DNA of 64,000 nt from Tetmemena sp. SeJ-2015 (Eukaryota > Ciliophora > Spirotrichea > Sporadotrichida > Oxytrichidae). Shown one piece after another: positions 1 to 41,339 of the stretch. Position numbers and translations under genes: made by a program. The stretch is taken from positions 115,128 through 179,127 of the forward strand of contig JAJKFJ010022465.1 of assembly GCA_027382625.1 (NCBI GenBank), given 5' to 3'. Under the pieces are notes generated by a model. That model was not told where the DNA came from, made no database searches, and was given only the letters and a program-made list of their open reading frames with translations. Within the stretch, counting starts at the first letter, position 1. The number at the start of each line of letters is the position of its first letter.

Positions 1-1034
1 AGAAAAAAAAAGCAGTATGTTTTTTTCTCTCAAATTTGTGATATTCGATTATATCAATTTATATTCACTTTTAAAATTTATTAAAATAAATTTAAATCTT
101 ATTTTAGATTCGCTGTTTTGTATTGAGTTAGTTTTAACCTTATAATTTTATTTTAATTTTTCAACCTTTTAAGTCTTTTGAGAACTGCTAAGAGGATTTT
201 ATTGCTTAGAATATAAAAAATATATATATATTTGCTTAATTAGCTTTTCTTGTGTTTCATACAACTTCAAATTAATTAATTTACTAACTGAAAATGTCTT
301 GATCTAAGATTGCTTAAAGTTCTACTTATAATTGTTAAATTTTGCATCTTAAATTTGTGAAAGTAAATGATTGCGAGTTTTTGAAAAATAAGGAGAAGAA
401 ATTTTATTTTTATTTTAACTCTCAAAAGCAAGTTGGGTATCTTCTTATTTTTAAAGAATGCGATTAGAGTCTGAAATGAGTATCTTTCTTAGAGGTCTAT
501 AAAAATATAAATATTTTGAATGAGATTAGATAAACTTAATTAGTGGCAATGAGTTAAAGGAGTTATCATGTGCTTTTGGTGAAGAGGATATTAAGTTCTT
601 GATCTTTTGTGAGACCCAATATTAATTTTCTTCAAGGATTGCAAGCTTTATAATTTTACTTCTTGAACTAAATTATCATTTTCTTGATAGCTTTTACTGG
701 ATCTGATTGAGGATAAATCTGATTAGCCATCTACCTACTGCTCTTCTTATTCTTTAAAAGGGTCAAACTACTCTATTTCAGATTTTACAAATCCATTCAA
801 TAAAATAATTTATAAATTCATATTGCTGACATAGTTTAATACATATGGGTAACCATATTAAGATATTATTAATAACTAAAGTTCCCTTATTTTAACATAA
901 ATTGAGTTTCATTAAAAGAGACTAAGCGATAGTGTATTTTTAACAAACTATTAAACTCTTGTCTTAAAATAAATGTTATATAGGTAAAATTTCAAGAGTC
1001 GCAATCAAGAAAAGTTTAATAAAAACCTTGCTAT

Positions 1035-1160
1035 TCATGGCCATGTCTTCATCCATTTATAATCATTAAAATTCTCACGCTCATTGCTTTAGCCGCTGCA
1101 AAGCACAAAATTATCGATGAAGAGTTTTAGGCTCAAATACTAATCAAAACAATAATTAAT
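1035..1160 (-). CDS. Coding island, unassigned, ends in TGA
   Basis: Reading the minus strand with TAA/TAG as Gln gives about 40 residues with normal amino-acid balance, including NERENFNDYKWMKTWP followed by TGA at 1035-1037. It stands out from the surrounding A/T runs. It could be the last MDS of a fragmented minus-strand gene whose other pieces lie at higher coordinates. No family is recognised and no start codon is evident. Confidence 0.25.
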
Positions 1161-2492
1161 AAATACCATAAATTCAATATAAACTAAAACATTTAACAAA
1201 AAATATTCTATATAATTATCTCGCTTCCTGAATTTTAAACTGTCTTTTAAGTCTAAAAGATTCAGTTATAAAATTAGCGCTTTAGTTGCATAATCCGTTT
1301 AATTAAAAAATTTCCTTTAATTTTATTGGCTAATGTAAAATTAAAAATAATTATATTTTGACTACAAAAGTTATTTTAAAATTTGAGTGGCTTTAATTTT
1401 ATTTAATAAAAGATTGATCATCCTACTATTTGTTAAATTTTGATTTGATTTTCTGTATTAACGACTATTTTTCTATCACGAAATAAAAGTAATTTAATAA
1501 ATACTAATGCTATAATGTTTTTTAAGCAAGAAAGATGGAGGAAGTTTCAGTCAAATTAATGATAGGAGCACTTTGAGAAAAATTTTATTTCATAATTTAA
1601 GTCTTTATTAAAATAAAGCTAACGAAGATTTGTATTTTTATCTTTTAGAAACAATCTTTTAGATAAGGTTTAATACATTTTTATCCAAAATATTAAATTA
1701 CCGAAGAATAAAGAGACTCACCCCTTCAAAAAAAAGATTGGATGACCCAAAAAATAATTCCATTCCTTGAATCTGAAAATGTTTTTCGATTAGGATAGAG
1801 GGCTAGATAAGTCATTAGTAGAAGTTATAGAGTCATCGAGGCTTGAATATAGTTTCCATGTTTTTTCCTCACAAAACGAAGATAGGAAAAGAAAATCACA
1901 ATATTTAAAATAAGCAGGAGAAATAATTTGATAAAAAATAATTATATTTTTTATTTTTAAGAAATATATAATTTATTTGTTAATTATTTAACTGATTTTA
2001 ATGATCTTACTAATGCTGCGGTGCTTTACTTCTGCAGCATTCTATTCAGGCTCAATGAGTTTAGATGTTTGAGATTCATAACTTGGCTGAGTCTTCCTTT
2101 CTAGGGATTTTATTATACCACAAGTGGACTTTAGTATTGAAGTTTATTAAACTCTGGTGTATTTAATTTACTATTCTAGTACCCTTTAATCAGACTTCGA
2201 CGAAAATGAAGCTTAAGATATTATATTAAAATAGATGAAAGAAGATTTAAAAAATAGCATTTTATTTCGGGGTAGAACAAAATAATTCTTAGATTTCTGA
2301 ATTAACTCATTTTATAATTTAAAGCTAATACTAGCATAAAATTAAATATAATTTGTATTAATTTCTATAAAATTTAAGAGCCCTGGTAATCTAATTTTCT
2401 TTTTATTTTTTTAATTTTAGGAGATTCTCGCCATCTAACTCTACAAATTGTTTATGTATAATTAATCAATACAAAATGGCCTATATGATACT

Positions 2493-2708
2493 TTAATTAT
2501 CCACAGCAAGAACAAAAACAAGATTTCCTTCTGGCGCAGATCTATAACTCACTTTCTTTTCCAATATTTGTTGATACATTAAGAGTTTAAGACAATATTG
2601 ACTTCTCATTTCATTACAATTTGCTGTTTCTTGTATTATTATTTTGTTCTTATTGCAAAGTGAATTCCCAAAAGGACTTAGAAATCTATTCTCTATTTTT
2701 ATTGACAT
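2493..2708 (-). CDS. Coding island, unassigned
   Basis: A 71-codon stretch from an ATG at 2708, with mixed charged and polar residues, for example QQILEKKVSYRSAPEGNL. It has no AT-run character, unlike its flanks. Under the Gln code the frame continues past the TAA at 2493 into AT-rich sequence, so the true 3' border is probably an IES junction rather than a stop. No family recognised. Confidence 0.3.
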   Translation of the reverse strand: MSIKIENRFLSPFGNSLCNKNKIIIQETANCNEMRSQYCLKLLMYQQILEKKVSYRSAPEGNLVFVLAVDN

Positions 2709-3479
2709 TTAATAGCAGTTGAACTACATCAGGTTTATTTGAAAATTATTAACATTTTTGAAAAGTAGGAGTTCTCAAAAATTTAGAATTTTTATTAACA
2801 GATTGCTTCCACTTATCTTTGAGGCGACAATCTATAAAATAAAGTAGTTTCTAAAATTTTATCGACATAAATTTAACTTAGAAGTCATATATTAATGAAA
2901 TTTAAATTAAAGAATAACTAATTTTAATGTAATCTATTTAAGAATAAATATTTTTAATTTATGTAATAATCTTTGATATTTGAGTTGGAATGATAATTTA
3001 TGAGCTGTTTGATTTTTGAGATGATGATTATGAGAAATTTAAAGCGTTTTAGAATGCTGAGCTCTATCTCTTTCACTCAATTATTTTTTGGAAGAAAGAA
3101 TTTGGTCTTACTTCTTGCTTTACTCATTACTTAATACAAATTATTTATATAGGTATATTTTAACAAAAAACATATCATACATAAATTTTTGTTAGAAATT
3201 CTTAATTAAATTTGCTAAACAGTGTATGAACTATTAAATTAAAAAATATTATACTTATTTAAGATATTAAAAAACATAATCAGCTACTTATCCCATTTAA
3301 TATTAATATTATCAATGTATTCATTTAAAAGAATTAAAAATATTTAAAGCAGATAGAAGATATTTAAATTTGTTTATAGAGTAATTATATTTGCCTGTAT
3401 AATATTACCTATTAGTAAATTACTTTTGAGAGGGTAAGATTGAGGTGACTCTGCCCTTGGGAGGGTGAGTTTAGTTTAT

Positions 3480-3786
3480 CTTTGATTTGACAAAATATTA
3501 GATTTGTAGAAAGTTTTATCGTCGTTAGTAACTACGTTATGCCAGACATAGAATGGAGATTTTGGTGCATATTTTCCAATAATTTGTCTGCTGAATATTT
3601 TCCAAGCTTTTCCTTTACTTTTTACGCCATTTAGCTAGTCTTGTTCAACCTCATCTAGCTCTAAGTTATAAAGAATTGGGGGCATTCCATCAAAGAATGG
3701 ATCAAATAAATCATAATATTAATATCCGAGTACCTATAGCATCAAAATAATATAGATTCATTCATAAAACAATTATAAAATTATTT
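3480..3786 (-). CDS. Coding island, unassigned
   Basis: About 95 codons on the minus strand without TGA, of clear protein-like composition: an aromatic and acidic first part (YQYYDLFDPFFDGMPP) followed by a basic part (GKAWKIFSRQIIGKYAPKSP). An in-frame TGA lies just upstream near 3760, so the segment either starts at the nearby ATG or is joined to another MDS there. No domain recognised. It is one of the best coding signals in the first 7 kb. Confidence 0.4.
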
Positions 3787-4032
3787 AAATCAATACTATT
3801 TTGTGTTATTCCATTAATTTTATTTTTTACAAATTTAATTAACTTAGGAATAATAAATTAAAAGAAATAATTTCGAGTTCATTCAAATTTATATTTTTTG
3901 TAATAAATAAACTTGGAAGTTCTTCTCATAATATATTTTTTATTGCTATTATATATTATAAAATTTGAAAGAGAAAAATTTGTTTTATTTAAATGAAAAA
4001 ATGGATAAAAGAAATATAATTATGCTCTAAAT

Positions 4033-4256
4033 TGAATAAGATGACTATAAGATCTGAGAGATGCATTAATAATTTGAATAAATCTTTCTTTTGATATGAG
4101 TTAACTTGACATCTGTGTTTTGATCGTAGTATTCAAATGAGTTTTCATTTTATATTTCAGATGGATCTGTCTCTATGTGTTAGAATTGCTCCTTGCTAGC
4201 CTTCTTTGACTTAAGGAGATTTGACTAAGCTACGTTTAGTATTTTGTCTCTCATGA
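4033..4256 (-). CDS. Coding island, paralogous to the 5.8-kb island
   Basis: Around 70 codons from an ATG near 4255, hydrophilic (for example FEYYDQNTDVKLTHIKRK). Its 3' part is similar at the DNA level to the island at 5608-6072: both contain an AAAAGAAAGA run and then GCATCTCTCAGATCT or its near match about 25 bases later, but in different reading frames. The two are therefore related copies, at least one of which has shifted frame. Confidence 0.35.
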
Positions 4257-5607
4257 AAGTGAACCTCCTCAATTTTTAAGAGGAGGGGCTGGGGGAATAT
4301 TAAGAACTCTTTGACATTGAAGCCTACAAATTTTTTGAAGTACTTTAAACTCCTATTTTCAAAGTATTACGTATATTTGCTACACTCTGCTTTTAAATTT
4401 ATATATTACCTTAAATAATTAGATAGGCTAAATACCAAAAACAATTCTCTCTAAAATTTTATCGAATATATTTATAGAATAACGGGAACACTTAAGTGTA
4501 AAACAATTTAAAGTAATGTTTATGGGATTTTAAAAATTACAATTTTAAATGCTTTAAGGCACTTTAATTCTAATTTCTGCTATAGTTTGAGAGATTATTA
4601 TTGCTACTTTTAAAAGAGATTTTATTTCCCTCTTCATTTTGATTCCTGGGCTAAAGATTTCTTAAAAACAGAGCAGCATATAATTATATCAATTTACAAC
4701 TATATATCAACTTCTACTACATCAAACTTAAATTATTTTCTTTCATTTTTTAAAACAATTAACCTGGTATATATCAAGAATTCCAATTGCTTTAAAATCT
4801 TATACAAAAAAAAAAAAATAAATAAGTTTTTCTTTTACATTGTAAATTGGATTTAGAAATATTACAAATAAAATAACTTTAAACACCTTGCTTAATAGTT
4901 CTCCACCTATAACCTGCTTTTTATTGGCTAATTTTTAAAAAAATTGATTATCTAAATGAAAGACCAAAGCTTATTTCTTAAAGCAAACACAGACCACAAA
5001 ATATTTCAATATTGAATTTTTTTCTATTAAAGGGAATAAAAGTGACGACAAAACTTAGTAAAATAGAGTAAGACAATTAAAGATATTTTTTAATTTTGCA
5101 AAAGTAAATATTAATTTTATCTTTTAAAAGATAGATCTTCCCATCTACTTAAAATATTATAATCATCATATCGTATATATAAATTTATCCCAATAAGATT
5201 ATGCTCTTATTCTCTCATTATTTATTTAGTAACTAAATTAGAAAGATAAGATGATAAGCTGTTTATTTCTTGAAATTAAAATAAATTATCTAATAAAATA
5301 AAAATGAAGGAACAAATCTTACTTTTGCTTAGCAAAATAAGTTCTAATCTGGCTTAAAACAAATTTTTCTTCTATCTATTTTGACGATTTTTATTATATT
5401 TTTTTCTTTCAAAAAAAATGATATTTGATAGATCTTAAAATAAAAATGTTGCTTATCGCATTAACATTGTGTTTTAATTTATTTAAATAGCCGATCAGCT
5501 ATTTGAAAATAATTTGATTTAATAATTTTACCTAAAGAGAAAATAGGCTACATAATTTTTTTTAATTATTACAGCAGTATAAATAACAATTTACTTCATA
5601 AATTCTT

Positions 5608-6072
5608 CAAACTCTCAAGTAATTTACTTCGATATTGTATTGCAAATCTATCATGAAGCTTATTTTTACTCCCATTTTGCAGTTTATTTTTATTAGAGGT
5701 CTCCATTGAAATTATTTTTATTTTTATGATTATTTTTAGCACTTTCTTACAATAAAAATTGGGCATAAGAGAGTTAAAAGATATTTTAGATCTGAGAGAT
5801 GCTTCTGAAGATCTACATACTCTACATTCTTTCTTTTATAATGTGAATATATACGAGCAGCATTTTAAGGAAATGGGGAGTGACTCTTAAGAAGTTTGTT
5901 TGAGTGATCTTTGTCTAAATTTTCAACTACTACTGTGGAGATCCTTCTATCATTTTACTTTCTTGAAAATATTTGTAATTCCTCAGCTTCATTGCCTTCA
6001 AAATCAAACTCTCCTTCTTTAAGCAAGTTTATTTTTAACTAATCATTTATATTTAATTTGTCAACCCTCCTT
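5608..6072 (-). CDS. Coding island, unassigned
   Basis: The longest protein-like frame in the first 7 kb, about 150 codons on the minus strand bounded upstream by a TGA near 6073. The first hundred residues are acidic and basic with little hydrophobic character, ending in YVDLQKHLSDLKYLLTLL; the remainder becomes AT-biased. Part of it is repeated, frame-shifted, at 4033-4256. No family recognised. Confidence 0.4.
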
Positions 6073-6407
6073 CAAGGTAACCTCTAATTCTGTAAATAAT
6101 TAGATTTAATAAATTTAATAATTAAAAACAAATACTAAATATATTTTTTACTTAATTTCACAAATTATCAATTAATCTATCTATTATAAGTTTATTTAAG
6201 AAGGAGATAATTTTAAACTTGATAAATATATTGAAATTGAGTTAAAATACTTTAATTAAAAATTTGAGAATAGAATATAGTTTAGTTAGGGAGTCAATAA
6301 TTATGATGATTCATTATGCGAACTTAAAATTTCTTTTGACTCGGAATCATTTTTATATTTGTCAATATTAACTAATTAATGTATAGAATTTCTTTTCATT
6401 CATTTAT

Positions 6408-6720
6408 TTTTCCAAATTTTTTAAAAAATTTAAACAAAAAAATTTAAAAAATTTTTTAAAAAAATTTTTTTTTTAAAGTTTTTACGATAATTAAAAATTA
6501 AAAATCTTTTTTAAAAAAATATGAAAAAAAAAAGTTTTTAAAAAAATTTTTTTAAAATTTAAACAAAAATTTTTTTAAAAATAAAAATATATATTGGCTG
6601 ATATTTAAAAAAAAAATATTTTTACTAAGGTAACATTAATTAAATAGCTAGACCTTGAAAAAAAAAATAATGTTGTGTGAAAAAATAATTTTTAAAAAAA
6701 TGATAATTTTAAATTTTAAG
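6408..6720. repeat. A/T homopolymer-rich low-complexity block
   Basis: About 300 bases made almost entirely of alternating runs of A and T (runs of 5-10), including imperfect self-complementary stretches. It contains no open frame of normal composition and separates the unassigned islands from the plus-strand fragment at 6724. Confidence 0.7.
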
Positions 6721-6723
6721 AAA

Positions 6724-6882
6724 AGATATGAACAAATTATGGGTTATGCGGGTGGTTAGATGGGTTGCTACTAAGATCTTTGTTCAAGTGATTATACTTT
6801 GTTGAAGACCTTGACTGAGAAGGATTTGATGATCGACTGCTTGATTAGTAATCCAGATGGGGATTTTCCTTTGCAAATTTGA
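6724..6882 (+). CDS. 3' coding fragment, unassigned
   Basis: Fifty-two codons on the plus strand ending in TGA at 6880-6882, with a Gly/Met/Tyr-containing start (MGYAGGQMGCYQ) and the end TLTEKDLMIDCLISNPDGD. In-frame TAG and TAA fall at Gln-compatible positions. It is directly downstream of an A/T block, so its upstream MDSs are missing or lie elsewhere. It might be the last MDS of a scrambled or truncated gene. Confidence 0.35.
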
Positions 6883-7220
6883 CTCCATTATTTGTAACTT
6901 CAATTTTTGCTTGAACTTCACACACTTTTCTAATTATAAAAAATAAAAAAAAATTTTTGTAAATTTTAACAAAATTTTTCAAATCTAATTTTTTAAATAA
7001 ATAAATTTTGGAAAGCTTTTTTTTAAAAATTTTTATATGAAATTTAAACACATTCTCCCCTCATCCTATCTACAAAAATCTGATTTGCAATCCAAATTTA
7101 TTATAATCTAATATATGATGAAGATCAAGTGTAATTCAGGAGATGCTTAAGAGGATAAATGACGTAAATCTATTAGTATTTATATTAAAGATATCTATAT
7201 CTATCACTCGCACATTAAAG

Positions 7221-40128: not shown

Positions 40129-40170
40129 ATGGCACCACCACAGCACCTCAAAGGAAATGGAAAGGGAAAG
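40129..40170 (+). other. H3 MDS 1, 3' pointer GGAAAGGGAAAG
   Basis: Carries the start codon at 40129. Its 12-bp 3' pointer (40159-40170) recurs at 40766. Any upstream limit is unknown. Confidence 0.85.
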
Positions 40171-41300
40171 AATAATGCTCAAGGAGAAATTATTATAATA
40201 TCGGCAAAGGCAAGAATATCTTACAGCAACGATAGCAATCCACTCATCAGACATCTGTGCAGTCAAATGACATTCCGAGAATGTCTTCCACTTCATCCAA
40301 GGGAATGTTTCCTATCAACAGATCCCCTAGCGGCCAGATCCCCAGATCTGCGCGAAAGACTGCGCCTCGCACCCAAACAGTCATCAGTTCTTAATTAACA
40401 CGTTTTATAGAATGGATTAATCAATGAAAGCCAGGCCAGCTAGCTCTGAAGGAAATCAAGAAGCTGCAACAGAGCACCAACCTCATGATGCTCACTCACT
40501 CTTTATTGCTAGAGACTAGTCAGAGAGATAGCTCGCTAAAACAACGAACATGTGGACAAGCTTTGATCGCTCTACAGGAGGCAGCCGAATGCTTCCTCAC
40601 CGGTCTGTTTAAAACATGCCATATTAAAATTAATGAGCTTGTTCGAGGATAGCTACCAGTGTACTGTTCACTTCAAATTTAGTCCTAAGAGAGCGCCGCC
40701 TAGAGCAAAACAGATGAAGATAAATGCCTAAATAATTTTAGAAAAGTGAATTAAAATATTTTTGAGGAAAGGGAAAGGGCAAGTTTCTCGGCAAAGGAAT
40801 ATTTTATAGCACCCAGAAGGCTGTCAGAAGATTCAAGCCAGGCAGAGGGAATAGATATATTTAGGAAATATCTAAATAAAATATAGAATAATTAGAATTG
40901 TAACGAAAAATTTTAAAAGATTTCTATATACAAACTTCAAATTTAGATATTTCAAATACCTTTTTATTCTAACCATAAAATTATCATTTATTTAAATTTT
41001 ACATACTTAATACTTTTTTGAATAAAATTGTGTTGATAAATATTAAACATGATGGCTCGGCTTCCCTTCTAGAGACTAATATAATTATATCTTCTACTAC
41101 GAACAGTCCAGGTTCTCACTCCAATCTTTGACTTCTTCTTAATTAAAAGAGAAACTGTTCACGCCAAGAGAGTTACTCTTTTGGCCAAAGACATTCAAAG
41201 AAATCAAAAATAATGTGTGCTCTAATTAATTTTTTCAGCTGGCTAGACGTATCCGCGGTGAGCGACTTTAATAAAAAGATGAAGAGTAAGTTGAGGCTCC
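40129..41300 (+). CDS. Scrambled histone H3 variant (possible CenH3)
   Basis: A histone H3 gene whose pieces are out of order. Assembling twelve MDSs by matching pointers gives one open frame: MAPPQHLKGN, then a long Gly/Lys/Ser/Gln tail of about 100 residues, then RKTAPRTQKAVRRFKPGQLA, LKEIKKLQQSTNLMM, RLPFQRLVREIARQNNE, SRFSLQSLIALQEAAECF, LFEDSYQCTVHAKRVTLLAK and DIQLARRIRGERL. Every H3 fold element is present and the spacing equals canonical H3. The long divergent tail and altered core suggest a centromeric or other special H3. MDS order in the DNA is 1-3-5-7-9-10-2-4-6-8-11-12. The 3' end is unclear, since the frame stays open to TGA 41578. Confidence 0.9.
40201..40375 (+). other. H3 MDS 3, pointers TCGGCAAAGG and GCACCCA
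   Basis: Encodes the Gln/Ser-rich tail up to RKTAPRT. Its 5' pointer matches 40788-40797 and its 3' pointer matches 40809-40815. Confidence 0.85.
40428..40490 (+). other. H3 MDS 5, pointers AAGCCAGGC and CATGATG
   Basis: Encodes KPGQLALKEIKKLQQSTNLMM. Its pointers recur at 40835 and 41048. Confidence 0.9.
40509..40550 (+). other. H3 MDS 7, pointers CTAGAGACTA and ACGAACA
   Basis: Encodes QRLVREIARQNNE. Its pointers recur at 41069 and 41099. An 18-bp IES separates it from MDS 5. Confidence 0.9.
40561..40609 (+). other. H3 MDS 9, pointers CTTTGA and TGTT
   Basis: Encodes LIALQEAAECFLTGL. Its 5' pointer recurs at 41126, and a 10-bp IES separates it from MDS 7. Confidence 0.85.
40640..40671 (+). 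other. H3 MDS 10, pointers TGTT and ACTGTTCAC
   Basis: Encodes FEDSYQCTVH. The 9-bp 3' pointer recurs at 41154, beyond the cluster of even-numbered MDSs. Confidence 0.85.
40766..40797 (+). other. H3 MDS 2 (displaced), 32 bp
   Basis: GGAAAGGGAAAG plus ten bases plus TCGGCAAAGG; fits exactly between MDS 1 and MDS 3 and shifts the frame so that the ATG at 40129 reads into the tail. Confidence 0.85.
40809..40843 (+). other. H3 MDS 4 (displaced), 35 bp
   Basis: GCACCCA to AAGCCAGGC; encodes TQKAVRRFKPG and joins MDS 3 to MDS 5. Confidence 0.9.
41048..41078 (+). other. H3 MDS 6 (displaced), 31 bp
   Basis: CATGATG to CTAGAGACTA; encodes MMARLPFQRL and restores the conserved LPFQRLVREIA of H3. Confidence 0.92.
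41099..41131 (+). other. H3 MDS 8 (displaced), 33 bp
   Basis: ACGAACA to CTTTGA; encodes EQSRFSLQSL and restores the canonical distance between REIA and ALQEA. Confidence 0.92.
41154..41197 (+). other. H3 MDS 11, pointers ACTGTTCAC and TTCA
   Basis: Encodes TVHAKRVTLLAKDI. It joins MDS 10 across a 491-bp excision that contains MDSs 2, 4, 6 and 8. Confidence 0.9.
41234..41300 (+). other. H3 MDS 12, pointer TTCA
   Basis: Encodes QLARRIRGERL. It is separated from MDS 11 by a 37-bp IES. The 3' limit is not determined. Confidence 0.75.
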
Positions 41301-41339
41301 TTCATTTAAAGATGAGAATCTATAAATTACCATTTTAAT

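Follow-up and report, generated by a model that had tools for sequence, protein, structure and literature searches.

How can the pieces of one histone H3 reading frame lie out of order in ciliate DNA, and do they still amount to a gene? The question is raised by a locus in a 64,000-nucleotide window, the whole stretch of DNA analyzed here (positions 115128-179127 of contig C3143, from a germline assembly of 146 Mb in 5213 contigs). A first-pass annotation had read this locus as a germline H3 variant gene whose macronuclear-destined segments (MDSs) are scrambled in an odd-even pattern and can be put in order by their pointers, the direct repeats that end one MDS and start the next. Reconstruction, blind threading, and GC content make this the best reading, and very probably a spirotrich ciliate carries here, in its germline (micronuclear) DNA, the odd-even scrambled precursor of a gene for a divergent histone H3 variant.

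Reconstruction of the scrambled frame

All twelve pieces, their order (1-3-5-7-9-10, then 2-4-6-8, then 11-12, all on one strand), and the eleven pointers that join them could be reproduced exactly from the sequence (Table 1). At each of the 11 junctions, the pointer ends MDS n and starts MDS n+1, and it occurs once in the predicted product; pointer GGAAAGGGAAAG of junction 1/2 has two occurrences in the whole window. The displaced MDSs, earlier described as 31-35 bp long, measure 32, 35, 31, and 33 bp (MDS 2, 4, 6, and 8), and they follow one another in this order within the 491 bp that separate the two copies of pointer 10/11, in agreement with the proposed 491-bp excision between MDS 10 and MDS 11. 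Pointers at scrambled junctions are 6-12 bp long, compared to 4, 4, and 5 bp at the conventional junctions of the same gene. Conserved genes have TAA and TAG internally and TGA at their ends, which is the usual ciliate code, and the joined frame was translated with code 6 (TAA/TAG=Q). The joined pieces form one open frame with the H3 fold, in which the canonical H3 blocks stand at canonical spacing as first claimed, and the protein matches Pfam family PF00125 (Histone) over residues 61-172 (109 bits, E 2.4e-31; cut-off 26.4).

The first-pass claim that such an arrangement is hard to obtain by chance holds for the protein frame but not for repeat lengths alone. For the frame, an H3 guide was threaded along the DNA codon by codon, ungapped and without the proposed solution being supplied, with jumps allowed only at shared words of at least 4 bases and each at a cost. 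Guided by an H3 of the same genome (L001), the threading followed the path MDS 5-6-7-8-9-10-11-12, which covers 7 of the 11 junctions, with a score of 215, compared to 66 without jumps and 32 on the opposite strand. Control maxima were 49.0 for 100 dinucleotide shuffles, 59.1 for 300 H3 guides with permuted columns, and 47.8 for 94 other 1.3-kb tiles of the window on both strands. A second guide (L007) gave the same path with a score of 204 (at most 53.8 with 200 permuted guides), and the H3.8-like guide L013, whose spacing before RRFKPG is that of the window gene, gave the path MDS 3-12 with 9 of the 11 junctions, 3/4 to 11/12 (196, compared to at most 54.3 with 200 permuted guides). Composition separates the same pieces: GC is 0.43-0.59 in the MDSs (0.502 pooled) and 0.218 in the 11 intervening stretches pooled, and the sole intervening stretch at 0.50 is 10 bp long. 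Among the repeats, the 22 bp of pointers at MDS 2 (12+10) were reached by none of 1000 shuffles of the even block. The region exceeds all shuffles in repeats of at least 8 bp (27 versus at most 26) and at least 12 bp (2 versus at most 1), whereas its nine repeats of at least 9 bp fall within the range of 100 shuffles (mean 4.62, maximum 10).

Several observations weigh against this interpretation. Pointer lengths at MDS 4, 6, and 8 are unremarkable by themselves: 16-bp bridges like that of MDS 4 (7+9) arose in 651 of 1000 shuffles and 17-bp bridges like that of MDS 6 (7+10) in 312 of 1000, and the bridge total of the ordered chain, 77, lies well within the shuffled range (mean 71.3, maximum 113). 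Taken alone, pointer lengths are thus weak proof, and it is the reading frame that carries the case for MDS 3-12. Junctions 1/2 and 2/3 fall in an unconserved, GK-repetitive tail where, judged by eye, a direct join of MDS 1 to MDS 3 at CAAAGG would also be in frame, so that MDS 2 rests on its pointer length, GC content, and position. A GC-rich island between MDS 10 and MDS 2 (40680-40720) is unaccounted for by the map. No close orthologue of the product was found among the 120 protein matches listed, which come from plants, a green alga, and animals, with no ciliate seen. The case for a thirteenth MDS, which is likely, consists of a 5-bp pointer and the need for a stop codon. Finally, the gene is known from germline DNA alone: a DNA search with the locus returned only itself, with neither a second germline copy nor a macronuclear copy found in an assembly that may be incomplete, and we therefore infer the joining in the cell.

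The end of the gene

While the pieces and pointers of the twelve-MDS scheme stood, its gene end did not. After the residues GER, the twelve-MDS frame has no stop codon and stays open to 41580, across open reading frames of the other strand, and MDS 12 probably ends at 41271. A thirteenth MDS is proposed to supply the stop. Deletions at direct repeats of at least 4 bp that keep GER and reach a TGA numbered 119 (the 25 shortest of 119 were listed). The C-terminus is shortest for the deletion at TTTAA (41267-41271/41305-41309), whose 5-bp pointer is also the longest found in the five deletions with the shortest ends. It would end the protein in RIRGERLQR, three residues after GER, while the 4-bp rival TAAA would place the stop one residue later. 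It is therefore likely that the gene has a thirteenth MDS behind a 33-bp internal eliminated sequence (IES) with pointer TTTAA. In this 13-MDS model, a coding sequence of 537 bases encodes 178 residues (20.18 kDa, pI 11.6), with LPFQ at residue 106.

Alternative readings of the locus

An ordinary collinear gene interrupted by introns or simple IESs would be in keeping with the 15 other H3 loci of the genome, all of which are collinear, but this is scarcely credible here: the collinear reading scores 66 compared to 215, and LPFQ, RRF, and the RF of loop 1 are encoded downstream of pieces that they must precede. A dead, germline-only relic, in which shuffled fragments of an old H3 copy are never assembled, could explain why no macronuclear copy was seen in the assembly and why the product has the longest branch (1.03) of the 19 rows compared, and the genome contains one other H3 copy (in L008/L009) that is visibly broken. 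However, the frame is kept over 11 of 11 joins of the first-pass map with no stop until the proposed TGA, the fold spacing is canonical to the residue, and each join has a pointer and every piece a coding-like GC, all of which make a relic highly improbable.

Rather unlikely, though compatible with a scrambled H3 gene, is an exact map that differs from ours: MDS 2 may be unused, the island may be a further or alternative tail MDS, or the C-terminus may be another, since other deletions likewise yield a stop after GER. The in-frame join of MDS 1 to MDS 3 speaks for such a map, as does the island itself, which can be inserted into the tail in frame with 7+7 bp pointers, CACTTCA (40669/40289) and AACAGAT (40709/40317), or with 5+5 bp pointers to give KRAPPRAKQIPRSARKTAP, which is reminiscent of an H3 tail. 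Yet in 400 trials shuffled islands reached a pointer total of 14 bp in 5%, 12 bp in 23%, and 10 bp in 73%; the island precedes MDS 2 and so lies outside the ordered even block, and MDS 2 has its 22 bp of pointers. In one frame the island translates to SPKRAPPRAKQMK, and its sequence was found nowhere else in a DNA search of the assembly. A spare island in such a fast-evolving variant, specific to the germline or to development, would allow two H3 tails to be made by alternative unscrambling, so that histone variety would arise at the DNA level during nuclear development, but we consider this quite improbable.

Table 1. Pieces of the scrambled H3 gene and neighboring features, in window coordinates. 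Pointers are preceded by their junction; bases of support are given where they apply.
Feature	Coordinates	Strand	Encoded residues	Pointers	Remarks
MDS 1	40129-40170	+		1/2 GGAAAGGGAAAG, 40159-40170 (12 bp)	start codon at 40129; 5' limit in untranslated region undefined
MDS 3	40201-40375	+	N-terminal tail to ARKTAPR	2/3 TCGGCAAAGG, 40201-40210 (10 bp); 3/4 GCACCCA, 40369-40375 (7 bp)	3/4 recovered blind
MDS 5	40428-40490	+	KPGQLALKEIKKLQQSTNLM	4/5 AAGCCAGGC (9 bp); 5/6 CATGATG (7 bp)	reconstruction and threading
MDS 7	40509-40550	+	QRLVREIARQNN	6/7 CTAGAGACTA (10 bp); 7/8 ACGAACA (7 bp)	reconstruction and threading
MDS 9	40561-40609	+	LIALQEAAECFLTGL	8/9 CTTTGA (6 bp); 9/10 TGTT (4 bp)	reconstruction and threading
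MDS 10	40640-40671	+	FEDSYQCTVH	9/10 TGTT; 10/11 ACTGTTCAC (9 bp)	reconstruction and threading
GC-rich island	40680-40720	+			between MDS 10 and MDS 2; possible extra or alternative MDS
MDS 2, displaced	40766-40797	+	GKGKFLGKG	1/2 and 2/3 (12+10 bp)	32 bp; GC 0.53
MDS 4, displaced	40809-40843	+	TQKAVRRFKPG	3/4 and 4/5	35 bp; GC 0.57
MDS 6, displaced	41048-41078	+	MMARLPFQRL	5/6 and 6/7	31 bp; reconstruction and threading
MDS 8, displaced	41099-41131	+	NEQSRFSLQSL	7/8 and 8/9	33 bp; reconstruction and threading
MDS 11	41154-41197	+	TVHAKRVTLLAKDI	10/11 ACTGTTCAC; 11/12 TTCA (4 bp)	reconstruction and threading
MDS 12	41234-41271	+	QLARRIRGERLQ	11/12 TTCA; 12/13 TTTAA, 41267-41271 (proposed)	
IES 12/13, proposed	41272-41304	+			33 bp; outside the first-pass scheme
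MDS 13 start, proposed	41305-41315	+		12/13 TTTAA, 41305-41309	AGA TGA; stop 41313-41315; 3' limit undefined

Elsewhere in the window, positions 1-7000 have a GC content of 0.19-0.26, compared to mostly 0.30-0.41 in the rest, and are perhaps a germline-limited stretch.

A divergent, long-tailed H3 variant

As predicted from the joined sequence, the product is a strongly divergent, long-tailed H3. A search with the whole joined protein returned at least 7964 H3-like proteins among 7989 scored, with 43-59% identity among the 120 matches listed, while tail residues 1-80 and residues 60-104 gave no match as separate queries. The best 60 of 176 solved relatives were H3 proteins, one of them an H3.1/CENP-A chimera, and the nearest were H3.3/H3.1. 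The canonical tail ARTKQTARKS is absent, and the sole H3-like tail motif is ARKTAP near K27. Identity to the rows compared is at most 61%, and in the 19-row tree the end branch of the product is followed by those of L014 (0.82) and L013 (0.52); only 2 of 16 inner branches were well supported, leaving the position of the variant unsettled. From its own divergence and by analogy with the long-tailed variants of Stylonychia and Oxytricha, we suggest that the product probably has a role in development or in the germline nucleus and is not a bulk H3.

The sister loci include an H3.8-like gene and a centromeric candidate. L013 (C3349:110403-113642) encodes MKKKTAPAEGG and a C-terminal extension; it is collinear and contains two short IESs, whose pointers are TTCC and ACTT. 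KKKTAPA and a C-terminal extension are the marks of Stylonychia H3.8 (PMC3918171), and L013 is therefore an H3.8-like micronuclear H3. L014 (C2966:48545-51763) is a divergent H3 with 4 extra loop-1 residues and a C-terminal tail. The loop 1 of centromeric H3 (CENH3/CENP-A) is typically, though not universally, longer than that of H3. The loop-1 insertion thus makes L014 the better centromeric candidate, and it is unlikely that the window variant is the CENH3 of this ciliate: its branch is the longest among the H3 rows compared and its tail is divergent, but it has no loop-1 insertion, its fold aligns to H3 ungapped at that point, and its best solved relatives are H3 proteins.

The long-tailed variants H3.7 and H3.8 of Stylonychia lemnae (20 kDa; developing macronucleus and micronucleus, respectively) have deviating tails (PMC3918171) and resemble the window product in size and in their long, divergent tail, but the signature motifs of either are absent from it. 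For H3.8, the product has ARKTAPR rather than KKKTAPA and no C-terminal extension (three residues after GER in the 13-MDS model), both marks being found in L013. That the variant is the counterpart of H3.7, the 20-kDa H3 of developing macronuclei, is a tentative and somewhat doubtful possibility. Stylonychia H3.7 has 180 residues (543 nt; 20.01 kDa), with LPFQ at 107 as counted from K105 (PMC3918171), compared to 178 residues, 20.18 kDa, and LPFQ at 106 in the 13-MDS model. RFKPG is common to both, though it is also found in L013 and L014, and the H3.8 counterpart is a separate gene here (L013, with MKKKTAPA). In contrast, of the published H3.7 motifs, K3 (K4-like), ARK61M, and LVK105KLPFQ (PMC3918171), the K3/K4-like motif is absent (MAPPQHLK), MMARLPFQ stands in place of LVKKLPFQ, and ARK is followed by T instead of M. 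Size is a weak character that depends on the 13-MDS model, and the comparison is one of published motifs and size. A further argument for H3.7 orthology, from the H3.7- primer (PMC3918171), whose reverse complement can be read as SIQGLLAL, near SLQSLIAL here, was rejected: an alternative frame gives VFKAYWHF, which the 57-bp amplicon (PMC5996456) favors if the primers are the same, and by hand count the octamer fits L007 no worse, at 5 of 8 residues.

A third comparison is with the second micronuclear H3 of Oxytricha trifallax, a centromeric candidate that is apparently Contig13492 and, like the variant here, is highly divergent and stands beside an H3.8 (PMC9958989). By its published description, it differs from the window product in its long extra predicted tails (PMC9958989). 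A closer likeness to this Oxytricha protein may be found in L014, given its loop-1 insertion and C-terminal tail, than in the window product.

Unscrambled sister genes

With the fold covered, 15 other H3 loci were found (L001-L003, two on C4000, five on C3153, and L011-L015), in addition to an H3 fragment at a contig end (C4200). All 15 are collinear: nine lie in one matched stretch, one of these nine being interrupted by a disrupted, TGA-containing stretch, and six (L010-L015) lie in two. L004-L009 (C4000 and C3153) are six near-identical divergent H3 genes in three back-to-back pairs, a few hundred bases apart, and the disrupted stretch with a TGA is in one copy on C3153 (in L008/L009). Pointers of sister H3 IESs, resolved in six of seven cases, are 3-6 bp long; the remaining case, in L010, resembles a GT-AG intron by eye. 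The IESs of L011 and L012, which are canonical-type H3 genes, lie at codon L70 of H3, which is also where scrambled junction 6/7 falls. This coincidence is not rare, given the number of junctions that the fold contains, and L011 and L012 are closely related.

The scrambled locus was absent from the 33 matches of a Pfam histone family search of the whole genome, whereas the joined protein, used as a query against the genome, recovered it piece by piece.

Scrambling of other genes was reported in Oxytricha and Stylonychia for actin I, TEBP-alpha, and DNA polymerase alpha (PMC2394655). In the genome of the window, two different TEBP-alpha-like genes, L058 (C3207) and L059 (C2601), are both collinear (two of six POT1-family matches compared) and only distantly similar to the TEBP-alpha of Oxytricha nova. 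Multi-piece actin-family loci were in order in 20 of 20 cases, hand-grouped from 65 matches, some of which look like duplicate contigs. These observations make an oxytrichid host doubtful, and the host looks more like a distantly related spirotrich. Nor do primers point to Stylonychia lemnae: 18 of its primers, two of them for H4, had no exact match in 12 H3 loci of this genome (other than the window gene), the best alignments having 1-9 mismatches. They give no estimate of genome-wide scrambling, as 31-bp pieces are invisible at this resolution, which the missed H3 illustrates. In other spirotrichs, the reported share of scrambled chromosomes is 15.9% in Strombidium, 12.9% in Halteria, and 4.2% in Euplotes vannus (PMC10901763).

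Relation to known scrambled genes

Like the scrambled genes of Oxytricha and Stylonychia (TEBP-alpha, DNA polymerase alpha, and actin I), the window gene has out-of-order MDSs, IESs, and direct-repeat pointers, which in those genes are 3-19 bp long (PMC2394655). It differs in being a histone H3, with only 178 residues for about 13 MDSs, and in belonging to a genome in which TEBP-alpha-like and actin genes are collinear. In O. trifallax, 96% of the scrambled loci show odd-even patterns or combinations of them (PMC5940158). These patterns are described as repeat or return words, with odd and even pieces in separate ordered blocks (PMC5940158), and the order here is of the repeat-word kind. Scrambled junctions are reported to have longer pointers (PMC5940158), with which the pointer lengths of the window gene agree. 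The IESs of 30, 52, 18, and 10 bp, set against even MDSs of 32, 35, 31, and 33 bp, give no hint, on lengths only, of IES-MDS paralogy, and such a mismatch would fit an old scrambling event.

From established ciliate biology, we expect that, after mating, a copy of the germline would be rearranged in the developing macronucleus. The conventional IESs (9/10, 11/12, and 12/13) would tend to leave first, as conventional IESs tend to go before reordering (PMC2394655), and the odd block and the even block (2-4-6-8) would then be interwoven at their pointers. Such rearrangement follows a template that is supplied by the old macronucleus and can consist of RNA (PMC2939574; PMC5996456), and the interweaving could be guided in this way as well. 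The finished gene would be expressed from a nanochromosome, and its product would be a long-tailed H3 replacement variant.

O. trifallax has more than 3,000 scrambled genes (PMC5312943) and twelve counted H3 variants, whose germline order is not given in the portion of the text consulted (PMC5312943). Scrambling is mentioned once, as general background, in the Stylonychia study (PMC3918171). A full-text literature search for histone genes and scrambling, in partly accessible sources, turned up no scrambled histone gene; the O. trifallax germline tables (Cell 2014) may list scrambled H3 loci, and priority is therefore not claimed. Odd-even scrambling is well known, and what is new here is a clear case on a divergent histone H3 with unshuffled sister genes.

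With about 13 pieces in a coding sequence of 537 bp, the locus is a compact and legible example of odd-even scrambling, and because histone spacing hardly varies, germline DNA suffices to solve and test most of the map, independently of a macronuclear genome. The genome-wide histone scan omitted the window gene, which illustrates that family searches can miss scrambled genes; H3 repertoires drawn from germline assemblies may therefore lack their most divergent members. Sister H3 genes interrupted by simple IESs, including one IES at the L70 site of junction 6/7, offer a within-family comparison, and if the host lies outside the Oxytricha group, this gene would bear on how odd-even scrambling has spread gene by gene.

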